Made by a program: the position numbers and the translations under genes | Shown: in pieces, positions 4,446-58,240 of the stretch | Position numbering within the stretch: the stretch's first letter is position 1 | Layout: every line of letters begins with the position of its first letter | The notes under the pieces: model-generated | What the model saw: only the letters and a program-made list of their open reading frames with translations | Databases searched by the model: none | What the model was told of the DNA's origin: nothing | Origin: Sporosarcina sp. Marseille-Q4063 | Lineage (GTDB): Bacteria; Bacillota; Bacilli; Bacillales_A; Planococcaceae | Length of the DNA: 64,000 bases | Assembly (NCBI RefSeq): GCF_018309085.1 | Contig: NZ_CP070502.1 | Location: 496,001 to 560,000, forward strand | Direction: 5' to 3'

Positions 4446-4730
4446 TAAGCCGCTGAAAAAGCATGGTTAATATATAGTTTCCGTCATTGAACTTGATTTA
4501 GTGCTCCAAGGAAAGAGCGAACTTCTCATTCGCTCTCCCTTCGCCTTTCCTGCGGGCGAGCAAGTGCAAAGGTCGGATAATATTATATATATACAATAAA
4601 AAATGCCGAATTAATCTTCAGCATTTTCCACATACATAATTATATAGTTTAAGTACATTGTTTCAAAAACCCGTTTCTTTTTCTTTTACTCAGATAAACA
4701 CTTTGTGCTATTGTCTTAACAATTTAGGGA
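4446..4730. other. AT-rich intergenic stretch with one hairpin
   Basis: No gene seen. An inverted repeat AGAGCGAA (4514-4521) / TTCGCTCT (4529-4536) lies within a CTTTCCTGCGGGCGAG-rich patch that looks like a degraded repeat remnant. The rest is AT-rich. Confidence 0.5.
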
Positions 4731-32920: not shown

Positions 32921-33180
32921 AAAAAAACTCCGTTCGTCTTAAAAAAGGACGAAGGAGTTGTTCGCGGTACCACCTTTATTTGTGCACAGCAAAAAAATGT
33001 ACACCTCATACTTGTATAACGGCTTCAAACCGGTTTCCACTAATGAAGAATAATCTTGTTCATGGAAACTGCTCACGGGGGACATTCTGTGCATCGTTTA
33101 CAGGGCCTCTCACCGTTGGCACCCTCTCTTTAGAAAATTATGTCACGTACTATTCCCGTTCATCGCATCAATATGCAGTT
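32921..33180 (-). promoter_or_regulatory. T-box riboswitch of valS
   Basis: The minus strand leader contains the T-box sequence AAGGTGGTACCGCGA (about 32962-32977), which pairs with uncharged tRNA ends, followed by a terminator stem AACTCCTTCGTC / GACGAACGGAGTT and a T-run (32921-32959). Upstream lie the long stem I region with GTGGAAACC-type inverted repeats. Uncharged tRNA-Val should favour the antiterminator. I did not assign the specifier codon. Confidence 0.92.
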
Positions 33181-34388: not shown

Positions 34389-34547
34389 AATAACTTTCTT
34401 TATACAGCGAAAGTAATAGTTGATTGGAGTGCAGGGTGGCGACTCCAGCGGAATCAGCGAGACAGCCGAGACCCTGGACTGAGCGCAGCGAGGGAAGCGG
34501 CTCGGCGCTCGCCCGCAGGAACGCGTCCGCCCGGAACGGAAATCGAC
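34389..34547 (+). repeat. Intergenic repeat family B, copy 2
   Basis: Core 34419-34547 (129 bp) starts GTTGATTGGAGTGCAGGG and ends GGAACGGAAATCGACGG, with GC-rich interior (AGACAGCCGAGACCCTG, GCGGCTCGGCGCTCGCCC, AACGCGTCCGCCCGGA). About 30 bp of left flank is shared. It lies about 110 bp after family A copy 2. Confidence 0.88.
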
Positions 34548-34589
34548 GGTTTCGTAGGCAAAATCAATTGAAATAGGTGCTTTGAGTCA

Positions 34590-34706
34590 CATTAGTCGTT
34601 TCGACAGCCTCTTTAGTCGTTTAGAATTGACTATAGTCGTTTCGATTGGGGTTTTAGTCGTTTGAGGATGCACTATAGTCGTTTCGACGGCGGTTTTGGT
34701 CGTTTG
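34590..34706 (+). repeat. Six-copy 21-nt-period array (GTCGTTT motif)
   Basis: GTCGTTT recurs at 34595, 34616, 34636, 34657, 34678 and 34699, that is every 20-21 nt, usually as (T/G)AGTCGTTT or TGGTCGTTT, with variable DNA between. A matching array in the opposite orientation is at 41285-41402. Confidence 0.85.
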
Positions 34707-34752
34707 GAGTATAGGAAGCGACAGGGGCGAACTATTTCTTTCGATATCCATG

Positions 34753-34795
34753 AAAAAACCGGGTACTTGAACAATAATACGTTCAAGTACCCGGT
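34753..34795 (-). terminator. Terminator of the hem operon
   Basis: Perfect 15-bp stem ACCGGGTACTTGAAC / GTTCAAGTACCCGGT with 8-nt loop, then six T on the minus strand. Confidence 0.93.
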
Positions 34796-34807
34796 ATGAA
34801 TTAATTA

Positions 34808-36100
34808 TTATCGAGCTAACTTTTCAAACACAGTATGGAACGCTTCAACCGTTTTCGCAATATGTTCCTCAGTATGCGCTGTTGAGATGAACATGCCTTC
34901 GAATTGTGAAGGCGGCAAGAAAATGCCTTCTTCCGCCATTAGACGATAGTAATCTGCAAACAATTCAAGATCTGATGTTCTAGCTTTGTCATAATTGATG
35001 ACATCCTCATTCGTGAAGAAGAAACCAATCATCGATCCTGCACGGTTTACTGTGTGCGGGATATTATACTTTTCAGCCGCCGCGCGGAAACCAGCTTCAA
35101 GTTGGTCGCCTAGCTTCATGAAATGATCATAAGATGCTGGTGTTAACTTTTTCAACGTTTCAATACCCGCAGTCATTGCAAGTGGGTTACCTGACAACGT
35201 ACCTGCTTGGTAAACAGTTCCTGCCGGCGCGATGTTTTCCATGATTTCTCTTGACGCACCGTATGCGCCAACTGGTAGTCCGCCGCCAATTACTTTACCG
35301 AGACAAGTAATATCTGGTTGAACATCAAAATGTCCTTGTGCACAGTTGTAACCAACGCGGAAACCTGTCATAACTTCATCGAAAATTAGCATTGACCCAT
35401 TTTCGCTAGTTAATTCGCGGAGACCTTCTAGGAATCCTGGTTGCGGTGGGACAACACCCATATTTCCAGCAACAGGCTCAACAATGATTGCTGCAAGATC
35501 GTCACCGAACTCATCGATGGCAACTTTCACGCTTTCAAGATCATTGTAAGCAACCGTGACTGTGTTTCTTGCAATGGATTCTGGAACGCCCGGGCTGTCT
35601 GGAAGTCCTAGTGTCGCGACACCAGAACCTGCTTTAATCAGCAGAGAGTCGCCGTGTCCGTGGTAGCATCCTTCAAATTTCAAAATAATATTACGACCTG
35701 TAACGCCTCGTGCTAAACGAAGTGCACTCATCGTCGCTTCCGTTCCCGATGACACCATACGTACCATTTCCATCGATGGTACGCGGTCGATAACGAGTTC
35801 TGCAAGTTCATTTTCAGCCAATGTCGGCGCACCGAAACTTGAACCCGTTTCTGCAACACGCTTGATACCTTCAACAACATCCGGATCCGAGTGGCCTAAA
35901 ATAAGCGGGCCCCACGAAAGAACGTAGTCGATGTATTCATTGCCGTCAATATCCGTAATCATTGCACCTTTACCACTTTGCATGAAAATCGGATCCATAT
36001 TCACCGATTTAAATGCGCGTACCGGCGAGTTAACTCCGCCCGGCATTAAGTCTACTGCTTTTTCAAACGCTTGTTTCGAGTTCGTATAATTTTTTTCCAA
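34808..36100 (-). CDS. hemL: Glutamate-1-semialdehyde 2,1-aminomutase
   Basis: PLP enzyme converting glutamate-1-semialdehyde to 5-aminolevulinate. 430 residues; PLP lysine in [14 protein letters not shown], with [11 protein letters not shown] and [14 protein letters not shown] start directly after the hemB stop (TAA-TTG) with GGAGGG 7 nt upstream. Last gene of hemA-X-C-D-B-L. Confidence 0.97.
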
Positions 36101-37081
36101 TTATTTTCCCTCCAACCATTTAGCTGCATCTTTTGCATGGTACGTCATAATTAAGTCCGCACCTGCACGTTTCATACTTGTTAATGTTTCAATCACAATT
36201 TCTTGTTCGTTTATCCAACCATTTTGCGCTGCCGCTTTCACCATCGCGTATTCCCCGCTCACATTGTAAGCAACGACTGGCAAAGTGAAGTTGTTTTTCA
36301 CATCGCGCATGATATCAAGATACGAAAGCGCCGGTTTAACGATTAAGAAATCTGCGCCTTCCTCCACATCTGCTTCTGCTTCACGAATTGCTTCAAGTCG
36401 GTTTGCCGGGTCCATTTGATAGGTTTTACGGTCTCCGGATTGAGGTGATGAATGCGCCGCATCGCGGAACGGTCCGTAATAAGCGGATGCATATTTGACT
36501 GCATACGACATAATCGGGATGTTGACAAATCCTGCCTCATCAAGCCCACGGCGAATTGCCGCGACAAATCCGTCCATCATATTCGACGGCGCGATAATGT
36601 CCGCACCGGCTTCCGCTTGGCTAATTGCCGTTTTCGTCAATAGTTCAAGCGACTGGTCATTCAATACATAGCCGTCTTCAATGACGCCGCAATGCCCGTG
36701 ATCTGTATATTGGCAAAGACAAGTGTCCGCAATCACGACGAGATCCGGATGACGTTCTTTCACAAAACGAGTTGCTTGTTGAACGATTCCTTCATCTGCA
36801 TACGCTTCAGTCCCCACTGCGTCTTTCTTTTTCGGAACACCGAACAATATAATCGACGGGATTCCAAGCGATACCACTTCATCCACTTCGGCAGCTAGAT
36901 GATCCAGCGACAATTGATAGACGCCCGGCATCGATTCAACTGCATTTTTAATATCGTCACCTTCGACGACAAAAATCGGATAGATGAAATCTTCTTTTTG
37001 TAAAACTGTTTCCCTTACCATCGAACGTAGTGTTCCAGAATTACGCAACCGTCTATTTCGACGGAAATTTAATTTATCCAA
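36101..37081 (-). CDS. hemB: Porphobilinogen synthase (ALA dehydratase)
   Basis: Condenses two 5-aminolevulinate. Zinc-binding cysteines in [15 protein letters not shown] and the two Schiff-base lysines in [14 protein letters not shown] and [12 protein letters not shown]. About 326 residues. I prefer TTG at 37081, 8 nt after AAAGGA; an ATG at 37090 abuts that site. The start overlaps the hemD end. Confidence 0.96.
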
Positions 37082-37841
37082 ACGTAACATCCTTTCGGCT
37101 CGCCAATTTATCGACGAGATGCTTTAAAGTATATGTCTCAGGTCGGACATGAACAGTAGCACCGACTTCTTTCAGTGCTTTTTCAGTGACATGCCCGATA
37201 GCTCCTACAGTGTAGCCGTCCCACCCGGTTTTGGGTGCCACTTCTTCTGCGAATATCTCGACAGCTGATGGACTCGCAAATAACACCGAAACAGCCTTTT
37301 CGCGTTGCAATAAATCCACAAGCGCTTCTGTGTTTTCTCCGGCTTTTTCAGTTTTATAGATTGTCCATTCATCAACTTCAAACGGCAATTCCTCACTGAT
37401 TGTAGGTCCTGCAATCGATCCTCGTAGAAATAATAATCGGCGAATATCATTTTCCTCTGGGTCAAATTCTTTCACGAAAACATCTGCACTAAAAACTGTC
37501 GGGATAAATTGCACTGAAAACCCGATTTTTTCAAGTGCGGCTGCGGTGCGTGTGCCGATTGCCGCGATATTTGATGGAATCATGTCAGCAGATACGCCGT
37601 GGCGCTTCATTTTCGCTTCAAATGCCGATACGGCAGTTTGACTTGTGAAAATAAGCCAATCATAAGACGGACTAGCTTCAAGGCGTAATTTATCAGTAGG
37701 CTCTATTAATTCCGCGACTTTTATTAGCGGGAGAGATACTGGATCTCCCCCGTACGTTCTTACCAAATCAAATACATCTTCTGACTTCGGCGTTCCGGTA
37801 AAGACGACTGTCTTCCCTTTTAAAGGTTCACTTTCCTTCAT
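37074..37841 (-). CDS. hemD: Uroporphyrinogen-III synthase
   Basis: Cyclises hydroxymethylbilane with inversion of ring D. 255 residues of the two-domain HemD fold; recognisable [24 protein letters not shown] and [12 protein letters not shown]. Low sequence conservation is normal for this family; the call is secured by position between hemC and hemB, overlapping both (14 nt and 8 nt). Confidence 0.93.
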
Positions 37842-38763
37842 TCATCTCGGCCATCACTTTCTCTATAACATCCCCGGCACCTTCAGCACGTAGTGTTTTT
37901 GCAACTTGCTTCCCTGCTTCAACTGGATCCGAGTGAACAACGCTATCTTTAAATACTTGAGTAGCATCTGGTGAAGCGATGTATCCCGTAAAGTGGATAT
38001 TTGTTCCGTCATACTGCGCATATCCAGCAATCGGAACTTGGCAAGAACCGTTCATTTCCGATAAAAATGTACGTTCCGCATCAATTTCTTTCCATGTTTT
38101 ATCATCCGAAACTTTTGCAAGTTCAGCCAATAATTCTTTATCGTCCACGCGGCATTCGATGGCCAATGCCCCTTGACCGACAGCTGGAATGCAATCTTCT
38201 ACGGACATATATTCAGTCACAACATCGTCATCCCAACCGACACGTTTCATGCCCGCAGCTGCTAGTAAAATCGCGTCATATTCACCATCGCGCAATCTTC
38301 TCATGCGTGTTTCAATGTTTCCGCGAATCCATTTGATCTCTAAATCAGGACGTAGCAACAGTAATTGTGAACTACGACGTAGGCTTGACGTACCGACAAC
38401 CGCGCCTACTGGCAGGTCTAAAAACTTCACATGGCCATTTGAAATGAATGCATCACGTGCATCAACGCGCGGTGGAATGCAGCCGATGATGAGTTCTTCA
38501 GGTAATTCAGCCGGCATGTCTTTTAAGCTATGTACAGCAAAATCGATTTCTTTATTGAGAAGCGCTTGTTGAATTTCTTTTACGAAAAGTCCCTTACCGC
38601 CTACTTTGGATAGCATGACGTCAAGGATTTGATCACCTTTTGTCACAATTTCTTTGATTTCAAATTCGAATGGCACGCCCGCCTCTTTCAGTTGTTCAAT
38701 AAACCATTTTGTTTGTGTCATGGCTAAATTACTTCTTCTCGAACCTACGATGATTTTTCTCAT
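37828..38763 (-). CDS. hemC: Porphobilinogen deaminase (hydroxymethylbilane synthase)
   Basis: Polymerises four porphobilinogens. 311 residues: [12 protein letters not shown] at the start, [12 protein letters not shown], and [12 protein letters not shown] with the cysteine that holds the dipyrromethane cofactor. AAAGG 9 nt before the ATG; hemX ends 27 nt upstream. Confidence 0.97.
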
Positions 38764-38790
38764 TCAACTCAACCTTTCATAAGGGGTTCA

Positions 38791-39621
38791 TTAAACCCAA
38801 AAATGGAATCCGGACAATGTGCTGCCCAGAAAGAAATTAATAATAACAAAGAGGAATACAAATATATTCGCCCATGCGCTGTTATTTCCTCTCAGTCTAC
38901 CTGTATGCATGGCCAATAAAACAAGAATATACAAAATCAGGATTAAAAACGAGCTAACAATCTTAAAGTCAAAGAAAGACCACTCATTCAACACGAGATG
39001 CGCCCATTGTGTTCCAAGAATTAGGCTAATCATCAGTAATGGAATACCGATAATGACGCCGACTTTCATGCCTGTCGCGGTTTGTTGAAGCGACGGTAAT
39101 CGAACAAATTGTTTCGACCATTTCCGCTTTTTCAATATTTTATATAATAATAAATACAAAATCGCATAGACAAATGATATCGCAAAAGCGACATAGGACA
39201 TAATCGCGAATGTAATGTGAATGAAAAGAAGTTCTGATATTAGAGCATCTCCAATTGGCGATTGCTTGATTTGCGTTCTGGCAAATGTATGAATCGTCAT
39301 GAAAATGAAGCCGATAACATTAAGGAAAAACACCATATAACTTGGCTTTGAAAATAAATGCAGCAAAATAGATACCGTTATTAATAGCCAAGCATAAAAA
39401 TAAATTCCTTCAAATAATGATAATATCGGAAAGCGTCTCGTTTCAACAATAAATAGGATTAATGAAGTTGTTTGCATCGCATACACAACGGTCAGTATCC
39501 AAAAAGCGACTCGGTGCGCGATTTTATCTTTATTTAAATAGTCAATGAAATAAAAGACAAGACTGAACGCATACAAGATGACCATCCATTCGTGCAGCCT
39601 CGTCATCGTGATATCAGCCAA
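38791..39621 (-). CDS. hemX: HemX, membrane protein of the hem operon
   Basis: Eight-helix membrane protein of the CcsA/HemX family, shown in B. subtilis to lower HemA levels. 276 residues with conserved LFEGIYFYAWL, LLFIHITFAIMSYVAFA and GTQWAH segments. TTG start at 39621 with GGAAGGG upstream. Between hemA and hemC as in B. subtilis. Confidence 0.92.
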   Translation of the reverse strand: MADITMTRLHEWMVILYAFSLVFYFIDYLNKDKIAHRVAFWILTVVYAMQTTSLILFIVETRRFPILSLFEGIYFYAWLLITVSILLHLFSKPSYMVFFLNVIGFIFMTIHTFARTQIKQSPIGDALISELLFIHITFAIMSYVAFAISFVYAILYLLLYKILKKRKWSKQFVRLPSLQQTATGMKVGVIIGIPLLMISLILGTQWAHLVLNEWSFFDFKIVSSFLILILYILVLLAMHTGRLRGNNSAWANIFVFLFVIINFFLGSTLSGFHFWV

Positions 39622-39729
39622 AACGTTTCAGCCCTTCCTGAAATAGAGTCCGATTTTAAACGATTTAAAAAGGCGTTTCCCCATTTACAGTGTATCATTT
39701 GCAATGAGGAAAAGCCCTTTTAATAATCG

Positions 39730-41094
39730 TCAAAATGACAAATCAGGTTCCGAGGAAAGATGATCTTCCGACCTAGCCGCTAGCCGCTTTTGTGCTAGTC
39801 TGGCCAATTCCTCTTTTTCCTTTTCAACTTCTTCATCGATTCCAAAAATCTGTTGGAATAGCGCAATTTTTTCAGCTGATTTAGGATCCATCGCCATTTC
39901 TTTTACTTGCAAGATTGGATCTCTTAACAGTTGGTTGATAATCGACTTTGTATGTTTGCTTAATACTTTCTTCTCGCGCTCTGTTAAATCCGGAATTTTA
40001 TTCAACATGCTTTCCATCGTTGTTCCTTGAATGCGAAGTGCCTTTTCACGGAGTGCAGTGATTACCGGAACGACACCAAGCGTCGCGAGCCATTCATTAA
40101 ACTCGACAATTTGTCCTTCAATCAACAAGCCGATTTTCTCCGCAGCTTTTTCACGTTCCGCAAGATTCGCATCGACAATTCCTTGTAAATCATCTATATC
40201 ATAAAGAAACACATTCGGAATCTCGCCAATTTTCGGGTCGAGATCTCTCGGCACCGCGATATCGATTAAGAATATCGGATTGCCACGGCGCATTTTCTCA
40301 ACGTTTTTCATTAAATCGTAATCAATAACGAATTTTGTCGCCGATGTTGAAGTAATTAGAATGTCCGCTTCCAATAAAGCGCATTGTAACTCGCTGATTG
40401 GTTTCGCGACGCCACCAAATTTCTTGGCGATTTCTTCAGCAGTTGAAAATGTACGGTTCAAAACAGTTACTTTTTCAGCACCGCTACCTTGTAAATTCTG
40501 GAGAGCCAGTTCGCCCATTTCACCCGCACCAAGTATCGCAATATGCTTGTGATTCAATGAACCGAATATTTGTTTTCCAAGTTCGACTGCCGCATAAGAA
40601 ATCGACACAGCATTTGCACCGATGTCTGTTTCTGAATGCGCGCGTTTAGAAAATGTTACAGCTTGTTTAAACAGCTCATTAAAAACAGTCCCTGTAACGC
40701 CAATAGACTGCGCTTCGAGGAAACTATCACGGACTTGTCCCAAAATTTGCGTTTCGCCGAGCACCATTGAATCCATTCCCGCGGCCACTTTCATTAAATG
40801 CTCGATCGCTTTATCATTCTCATTGATAACGAGGTGAGCCTCGAATGATTCCATTGGCACATTGAACCAATCCGCTAAAAAGCGCTTTACATAATAACGT
40901 CCTGTATGCAATTGATCGACCACTGCATAGATTTCAGTTCTATTACAAGTCGATATGATTGTGTTTTCTAAAATACTTTTTTGTTGTTGCAACGTTTGCA
41001 TGGCTTCTGCCAATTCTGTTTCAACAAACGCCAACTTCTCTCTTATTTCAACAGGTGCAGTTCGATGGTTAACACCTACTACGATTGTATGCAC
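39730..41094 (-). CDS. hemA: Glutamyl-tRNA reductase
   Basis: First committed enzyme of the C5 heme pathway. Catalytic cysteine in [25 protein letters not shown] domain [16 protein letters not shown]; dimerisation domain at the C-terminus. The family N-terminus (M-H-x-(I/L)-V-V-G-V) points to the GTG at 41094 giving 454 residues, close to B. subtilis (455); the frame is open to a GTG at 41115. Opens the hem operon; extended -10 promoter at 41135. Confidence 0.96.
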
Positions 41095-41134
41095 TTCAGT
41101 GCTCACACCTTTCACGTTCTAATTCACTATTTCA

Positions 41135-41143
41135 ATTATAACA
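41135..41143 (-). promoter_or_regulatory. Extended -10 promoter of the hem operon
   Basis: Minus strand TG-T-TATAAT about 40 nt before the hemA start; weak -35. I saw no PerR-type box next to it. Confidence 0.55.
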
Positions 41144-41284
41144 TATTGTGGCCTAAATTTAGTTTCCAATTGTGAACAGCGTATGACTCACACTAGTTTA
41201 TTCAACATATTAAGAACTACTCTAAACTAACTTTACCAAGGATAAAGGACGTTGACAATGGATGTGCATTTTTTGTCGATATAT

Positions 41285-41402
41285 GCCAAACGACCAATAA
41301 AGCGCGGGAAACGACTATAGAAGACTATGAAGCGGCCATAACAGGAGGAAAAGCGACTAAAGCGCACCGCCAAACGACCATAACACCGACTCAAACGACC
41401 AA
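41285..41402 (-). repeat. Six-copy exact 21-nt-period array (GTCGTTT motif, inverted)
   Basis: On the plus strand the CGAC/CGGC core of AAACGAC falls at 41291, 41312, 41333, 41354, 41375 and 41396, exactly 21 nt apart. Read on the minus strand it is the same TGGTCGTTTG / TAGTCGTTT motif as the 34.6-kb array. Lies between hemA and the engB terminator. Confidence 0.88.
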
Positions 41403-41425
41403 TACCACACAACTCTACTAAACAA

Positions 41426-41470: not shown

Positions 41471-42052
41471 TTACATTCTTTTTTTAATTTCGCCCCACGC
41501 CTCATCCATCCCAATCCCTTTTTCAGATGAAAAAACAATCAGTGGATCTTCAGGACGCATGTTGAGGTTCTCGCGAATGATCTTTTTATGTTTATTCCAG
41601 CTGCCTTTTGGAATTTTATCGGCTTTTGTTCCGATAATAATTGCCGGTAGTTGGTAATGAACTAAAAACTCATACATGATTTTGTCATCCTTGGTCGGCG
41701 GATGACGCAAATCGATAATTTGAACAACCGCTTTTAAGATTTCTCTTTCAACCAAATATGTTTCAATCATTTTCCCCCACGCTTCACGCGAGGATTTAGA
41801 CACTTGCGCGTAACCGTATCCGGGCACATCGACGAAAAACAATTGTTCTTCTATTTTATAGAAATTTAACGTTTGTGTTTTTCCCGGTTTAGATGATGTA
41901 CGCGCAAGGCTTTTGCGTCCAATCATCTTATTGATGAATGACGACTTCCCTACATTTGAACGACCAGCGAGTGCAAATTCCGGATAACCTTCAGTCGGAT
42001 ATTGTTCCGGTCTGACTGCACTCATGATCATTTCAACGTTATTCACTTTCAT
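41471..42052 (-). CDS. engB: Ribosome biogenesis GTPase YsxC/EngB
   Basis: Essential small GTPase for 50S assembly. 193 residues; P-loop GRSNVGKSS, switch region [29 protein letters not shown]. Overlaps the lon stop by 14 nt; GGAGG 9 nt before the ATG. Confidence 0.96.
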
Positions 42053-57574: not shown

Positions 57575-58240
57575 CGCGTTACGGGAATAAACCAGCGAGG
57601 TACGGGAGCAAACTGGTCTGTTACGGGAACAACCGACAGCGTTACAGGAACAAAATCGTCGCCCTACGCGTTACGGGAATAAACCAGCGAGATACGGGAG
57701 CAAACTGGTCCGTTACGGGAACAACCGACAACGTTACAGGAACAAAATCGTCGCCCTACGCGATGCGGGAATAAACCAGCGAGATACGGGAGCAAACTGG
57801 TCCGTTACGGGAACAACCGACAGCGTTACGGGAATAAAATCGTCGCCCTACGCGTTGCGGGAATAAACCAGCGAGATACGGGAGCAAACTGGTCCGTTAC
57901 GGGAACAACCCACAGCGTTACGGGAATAAAATCGTCGCCCTACGCGTTGCGGGAATAAACCAGCGAGATACGGAAGCAAACTGGTCCGTTACGGGAACAA
58001 CCGACAGCGTTACAGGAATAAAATCGTCGCTCCGCGCGTTGCGGGAATAAACCAGCGAGATACGGGAGCAAATAGTCCGTTGCGGGAGCAACCGACGGCG
58101 TTACGGGAATAAAATCGTCGCCCTACGCGTTGCGGGAATAAACCAGCGAGATACGGGAGCAAATAGTCCGTTGCGGGAGCAACCGACGGCGTTACGGGAA
58201 TAAAATCGTCGCCCCGCGCGTTGCAGGAATAAACTAGCCA
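57575..58240. repeat. Tandem repeat, seven full 91-92-bp units plus a partial
   Basis: Units start at 57575, 57667, 57759, 57851, 57943, 58035, 58126 and 58217 (periods 92 x5, then 91, 91). Each holds four sub-repeats with a TACGGGAA(T/C)AA-type core, the first unit at 57580, 57601, 57622 and 57643, so 21 nt apart, then a 29-nt step. Consensus sub-unit GTTACGGGAATAAACCAGC. Changes such as AACTGGTCC to AATAGTCC mark the last two units, indicating recent local duplication. Confidence 0.95.

Follow-up and report, generated by a model that had tools for sequence, protein, structure and literature searches.

Dozens of arrays dispersed over the chromosome of Sporosarcina sp. Marseille-Q4063 repeat an 11-nt core, TWTR GTCGTTT, with a step close to 21 nt. 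Two of them lie in the stretch that served as our window (64,000 nucleotides; NZ_CP070502.1, positions 496,001 to 560,000 of the forward strand), on either side of the hem genes. Comparison with sister species indicates that this core is under purifying selection and that the step is kept, selection having been examined for the GTCGTTT family alone. Among related genomes the step, and sometimes the gap between genes, persists while the core itself changes. We tentatively favor the reading that the arrays are rows of binding sites for putative DNA-binding proteins, two helical turns apart and placed in gaps predicted to be untranscribed, although we rate it at slightly less than an even chance.

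The spacing is a property of the whole genome. The pattern GTCGTTT N13-15 GTCGTTT occurs 99 times in its 3,978,257 bases (one contig) and the reversed control pattern not once. With the gap freed to 2-32 nt, which allows starts 9-39 nt apart, we found 102 GTCGTTT pairs against 3 for the reversed control; 99 of the 102 start 20-22 nt apart and the other three at 19, 33 and 35 nt. The preference for a 21-nt period that the original prediction had read from the window is thus present genome-wide and well above chance, and the contrary outcome, no such preference, is excluded. The count of 102 pairs is unconditioned; the stretches analyzed below were chosen for holding at least one exact-copy pair at 20-22 nt, so that the counts made inside them (84 arrays and their placement) are conditioned on it. 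These stretches cover every one of the 99 pairs in the genome itself, 47/48 pairs in the sister species G012 and, in the sister species G003, 64 of the 65 pairs listed out of 81.

The consensus of the 84 arrays shows that the conserved core is longer than the GTCGTTT first recognized and is followed by about ten loose positions, often with GC at the end. With a unit finder that permitted only steps of 19-22, 41-43 and 62-63 nt, the steps were 21 (337), 20 (48), 22 (7), 19 (3), 41 (1) and 42 (1) nt, and six units was the commonest array size (27/84). In arrays of 5-8 units of which none are identical, the base after the core alternates between C and G (104 vs 53), more often than in any of 5000 permutations. 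In the same set, spacer identity was.336 between neighbors,.456 two units apart,.375 three apart and.428 four apart, random units giving.345. A pair spanning 42 bp may be the working unit; alternatively, duplications of 42 nt may be how the arrays grow. Outer units seemed better kept in the 27 six-unit arrays (.85 for the first and.96 for the last,.52 for the fourth); we did not use this pattern because the rule that delimits the arrays may produce it and because it was absent from the 18 seven-unit arrays. Repetition of seven codons (21 nt) was rejected as an explanation since 20-nt steps break the frame, and the overlap of some arrays with short open reading frames (ORFs; setting of at least 70 aa) was taken as spurious. 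DNA curvature alone was also set aside, since only part of the families show a positive autocorrelation of A/T at 10-11 nt, which is lacking or negative in the rest.

Evidence for constraint on the core comes from arrays in orthologous positions, of which 43 pairs were reciprocal. Opposite orientation was covered by a single comparison, in which 49 pairs had the same orientation and 1 (L064/L099) was inverted relative to its flanks. In the 17 orthologous pairs with equal unit number (72 units) the core was.875 identical and the spacer.499, as compared to.845 and.349 for non-corresponding units of the same arrays. Five pairs, three of them from one locus and all selected after the unit data had been viewed, correspond one to one and gave.897 for the core (242 sites) vs.632 for the spacer (220 sites; Fisher 1e-11). 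Fourfold sites in the orthologous genes that we fetched were.652,.666 and.603 identical. The spacers therefore drift no more slowly than neutral sites, unlike the core, in agreement with the earlier claims that the DNA between the motif copies is unconserved and that a period rather than a long unit is kept.

These data bear directly on the main rival, in which the arrays are selfish or neutral minisatellites: duplications of 20-21 nt with a preferred mutational step, tolerated in gaps and homogenized by gain and loss of units. Such a process is favored by the recent growth of some arrays, by higher-order modules that are 82 and 92 nt long, by the concentration of 13/39 arrays in a single cluster at 2.94-3.02 Mb and by the greater likeness of spacers two units apart, as expected from 42-nt duplications. 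It is weakened by the one-to-one pairs, where unit turnover plays no part: neutral repeats would lose their core as fast as their spacer. Neighboring spacers are moreover no closer than random ones, and the process does not account for a step that is kept strictly in unrelated sequences. We judge a neutral origin rather unlikely, though it is still to be taken seriously.

Placement with respect to genes, here ORFs and not annotation, is also non-uniform. Among 83 arrays with a called gene on either side, 29 lie in tandem gaps along the genes and 26 against them, 24 in convergent gaps and 4 in divergent ones, whereas these stretches contain, among gaps of 100 nt or more (those of the arrays included), 175 tandem, 34 convergent and 49 divergent ones. 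The enrichment between convergent genes that had been proposed as a check is thus borne out. Arrays stand at a median of 66 nt from gene ends (n=103) and 134 nt from gene starts (n=63). A terminator-like hairpin, by our own rule, stands between gene end and array in 70/103 cases, compared to 62/158 gene ends in gaps that lack an array of this kind and 24/228 gene starts. A role in RNA, with transcribed arrays acting as a sponge, a processing signal or a 3'-end signal, would suit their location close behind gene ends. It fits poorly with their indifference to strand, with the hairpins that precede them and with folding scores that reveal no structure (for the first 45 arrays to qualify, a mean z of -0.28 and +0.26 on the two strands against redealt spacers); nor did the window's arrays match Rfam. 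Placement, strand neutrality and folding together fit a role at the level of DNA better, and we regard an RNA element as quite improbable.

At the scale of the chromosome, array positions lean towards the replication origin (dnaA at 2.372 Mb; Kolmogorov-Smirnov p 2.7e-5, or 0.039 without one dense cluster). A check around origin and terminus had been suggested, and the lean itself had not been predicted. A replication-polar motif was rejected, with 17/39 arrays co-directional with replication. Between 2.968 and 3.020 Mb (L066-L068), dense arrays stand beside very long ORFs (1185-1883 aa), some of which by eye resemble subtilisin-type secreted proteases; some flanks are near-identical there, which suggests joint duplication of gene and array. 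We found no functional theme among the neighbors: 63/70 proteins were scanned and fell into 106 Pfam families of at most 3 members each, ten of the proteins being scanned against NCBIfam as well.

The GTCGTTT family itself is narrowly distributed. It occurs in numbers in 3/61 genomes, our own (99 pairs), G003 (81) and G012 (48), the other 58 having 0 to 3, and a stricter pattern run over 250 genomes of the family gave 72, 59 and 34 in the same three and 1 in one other. In G003 and G012 the family frequently occupies the same gaps as in our genome, and their YsxC proteins are 98 and 96 percent identical to that of our genome as against at most 83 in the other listed members of the genus. Among named genome contigs the pattern matched 28 stretches, the multi-copy ones nearly all from S. 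jiandibaonis and the rest single matches in unrelated bacteria (records near our own genome may be left out).

Other cores are repeated with a similar step. The window holds an array of a second family, ACGGGARYAA, which counts 72 pairs genome-wide vs 0 for its control, at 11 loci by reading of the list; in 12 arrays that were read its steps were 21 (74), 29 (9) and 50 (19) nt, with six others. Two more 21-nt arrays of the same genome have the cores ATTGAGCGGACATAA (L057, 2115-2356) and GTGCAAGCAAAT (L065, 11428-11601). Other Sporosarcina species carry families with different cores at a 19-21 nt step. A finder for 7-mers repeated at 19-22 nt, compared with twelve other steps (neighboring steps overlap), returned 18 arrays per 200 kb in G225 and 20 per 200 kb in G248 against 0-9 at the other steps; the counts were 6 in 140 kb for G182 (0-3), 4 in 60 kb for G243 (0-2), 1 in 140 kb for G251 (0-2) and 1 in 60 kb for G254 (0). 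Part of these arrays fall in coding sequence. Cores read from them include TACGTTTCGATACG, TAAGCGGTGATA, ATCGGTGGTAAA, TTATGCGT and TCTTGAGCGC, the last two with a step of 20 nt. One array of G182 (L170, 9811-10964) extends over about 1 kb with the unit GTCGTAYAGTT, 17 exact GTCGTAT copies and a higher order of four units. Six Sporosarcina genomes hold 88, 74, 68, 65, 35 and 26 pairs of TGAGCGG at 20-21 nt, the control giving 0. This core matched in 20/141 genomes of the family, but outside the genus it reached no more than 5 pairs, which controls in other genomes also attain (up to 7). Over 700 kb from other genera, the 7-mer finder gave 5 arrays at the 19-22 step vs 0-4 at others, so that a presence there is no more than suggested; four examples were read by eye (L192, L213, L215 and L223).

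Families also replace one another in a given gap. Behind hemL our genome and G012 have the GTCGTTT array, and G003 has in the same gap a 21-nt array with the core ACGTTTCC; as the latter lies across another repeat, the gap is shared and the exact base is not. In a second gap a TGCAAGCAAA array of our genome and G012 is matched by the ACGTTTCC family in G003, a family with 39 pairs in G003, 1 each in two other genomes and 0 in the remaining 58 of 61. The gap between ysxC and hemA contains GTCGTTT units in all three sister genomes; in G251 and G002, which are distant, it holds GTCGTAT arrays, and in G016 and G010 no array was seen there.

The difference in families between close species would also be expected if the arrays were binding-site sinks, titrating an initiator or regulator of a plasmid, a phage or an integrated element, and the architecture does resemble that of plasmid iterons, in which a short direct repeat recurs several times at intervals of about two turns, separated by variable bases, and each copy binds one protein molecule. 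Iterons are in this respect the closest system. Our arrays are found at dozens of chromosomal loci and keep their orientation across species. No replication initiator was among the 25 commonest Pfam families of the scanned neighbors, a scan not directed at initiators, and the GTCGTTT family had 0 matches in viral contigs (nearest records may be left out; plasmid records were outside the search). We consider this explanation improbable. A link to phages was likewise set aside for two other cores: they matched 1 and 19 viral stretches, and 19 of these 20, inspected by eye, were judged to be coding or simple repeats. The 19 stretches with three-copy TGAGCGG arrays (L232-L250) include several seven-codon repeats in long open frames.

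The combination of a constant core with variable spacers at many dispersed loci might finally point to acquisition as in clustered regularly interspaced short palindromic repeats (CRISPR) or transposons, with an integrase adding units or moving arrays between gaps. Against it, Cas1 had 0 matches in our genome in a search that was positive in 9/14 control genomes, orthologous spacers change in place, and 82 arrays inspected by eye had no common flanks or inverted ends. A Y1 transposase gene and a broken copy are present, with no array in the surrounding 15 and 16 kb. Acquisition of this kind is in our opinion very improbable. CRISPR arrays share the constant repeat, variable spacer and regular period, and differ from ours in unit length (here 21 nt), in Cas1, in the dispersal of the loci and in their spacers, ours drifting in place.

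We found no paper describing these arrays, in a search that did not reach most subscription journals. The STAR elements of Staphylococcus (PMC3532100) are the nearest published relative. They too are intergenic, interspersed direct repeats with a short core, locus-specific spacers, changing copy number and species-specific loci; their function is given there as unknown and selection is proposed. The STAR core, T(G/A/T)TGTTG(G/T)GGCCC(C/A), recurs with at least 40 bp between copies. It differs from TWTRGTCGTTT, and the present arrays have a 19-21 nt step, many unrelated cores in one genus and spacers that differ inside a single array. Repetitive extragenic palindromic (REP) sequences and bacterial interspersed mosaic elements (BIME) resemble our arrays in being intergenic, present in many copies and clustered near gene ends with alternating sub-types. 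They are palindromes in alternating orientation, whereas the present units are direct and, as noted above, have no folding signal; nor is their linkage to Y1 transposases matched, since the stretches surrounding the Y1_Tnp gene of our genome contain no array with a 19-22 nt step. Minisatellites or variable-number tandem repeats (VNTR) similarly consist of tandem units, and some of our arrays grow by whole units. The constant step across unrelated sequences, the constrained core and the unrelated neighboring spacers set ours apart, a comparison made on arrays without identical units, some excluded arrays having such units.

How could rows of binding sites work? A putative sequence-specific protein, one for each core family, would bind every 11-nt core in double-stranded DNA. 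Neighboring molecules would then sit on one face of the helix, two turns apart, and could hold each other, possibly in pairs on a 42-bp double unit. Behind terminators the protein would be safe from displacement by RNA polymerase, and the bound row would most likely insulate adjacent transcription units or aid chromosome organization. The cooperatively bound protein of the original prediction is consistent with the spacing, the core constraint and the placement at gene ends and between convergent genes. No such protein was found, and none was directly sought.

Several observations weigh against rows of binding sites. Some steps are off the helical phase (29 nt in ACGGGARYAA, 19 nt in TACGTTT), and the GTCGTTT family is confined in numbers to 3/61 genomes. 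Several core families in one genome would each require a protein of their own, and no partner has come to light, the search not having been directed at one. Some arrays, among them those of L097 and L090 with their near-identical units, clearly arose by tandem expansion not long ago. The flanks, 100 nt on each side in gapped alignment, have a mean identity of.798 and are more alike than the spacers, so that the spacers possibly evolve above the neutral rate, in part by turnover of units. Convergent gaps are favored only weakly in six other species (9/50 convergent vs 4/64 divergent, p 0.074; tandem 14/196), and 12/50 of their arrays lie outside called gaps.

The two arrays of the window are listed in Table 1. 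Each had been described as having six copies. This is exact for array 1, whose GTCGTTT starts are at 34595, 34616, 34636, 34657, 34678 and 34699 on the plus strand (steps 21, 20, 21, 21 and 21). In array 2 four cores are exact (AAACGAC on the plus strand, at 41288, 41309, 41372 and 41393) and two, in the same 21-nt register, are degraded (AAGCGGC at 41330 and AAGCGAC at 41351). The arrays had also been described as inverted around the hem operon. A meaning for this inversion finds no support in the genome-wide data, given the nearly equal numbers along and against genes and the absence of a preferred direction relative to replication. G012 keeps both arrays, array 2 with three units, and G003 keeps neither array 1 nor the full array 2: its hemA side is reduced to one unit and its hemL side has the different 21-nt family described above. 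The bracket around the hem operon is incidental.

Table 1. Features of the window discussed in the text (window coordinates).
Feature	Position	Strand	Description
Array 1	34591..34705	+	Six TWTR-GTCGTTT units, flanked by the terminator of hemL and by an ORF of 214 aa
hemL ORF	34808..36100	-	3' end faces array 1; gene name taken from the original prediction
hemA ORF	39730..41115	-	Downstream of array 2; gene name taken from the original prediction
Array 2	41288..41422	-	Six units in 21-nt register and one weak unit, in the ysxC-hemA gap
ysxC ORF	41471..42052	-	3' end faces array 2; match in 61/61 genomes; presumably ysxC (YihA/EngB-type GTPase)
ACGGGARYAA array	57581..58203	+	Second family; steps 21, 21, 21, 29 (92-nt module)

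A G+C-rich repeat (GCGACTCCAGCGG...GCTCGCCCGCAGGAA) adjoins array 1 at 34437-34560, with related pieces at 4547, 5508 and 48626. The GCGACTCC / GCTCGCCCGCAGG repeat beside array 1 was considered and rejected, being within 400 nt of only 3/84 arrays. Elsewhere in the window there are a T-box leader (32942-33172) and a ribosomal protein L21 leader (2885-2959), both on the minus strand.

Bacterial intergenic gaps are thought to hold little beyond promoters, terminators and a few known repeats. In one genus we find many arrays with a common step in unrelated sequences, with core constraint measured in one family. This leads us to speculate, as a possibility that we ourselves doubt, that a chromosome system common to the genus and perhaps to the family conserves geometry over sequence: rows of protein sites at a 19-21 bp step that occupy the gaps behind gene ends, several core families per species with matching, fast-changing putative proteins, and families that can replace each other in one gap. 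If true, such a system would be a bacterial counterpart of insulators or of chromatin-nucleating satellite arrays. If no protein binds the arrays, one would have to explain how a mutational process comes to keep so strictly to a step of about 21 nt. If a protein does bind them, they would represent a new layer of chromosome organization, for which the motif itself would provide the handle.

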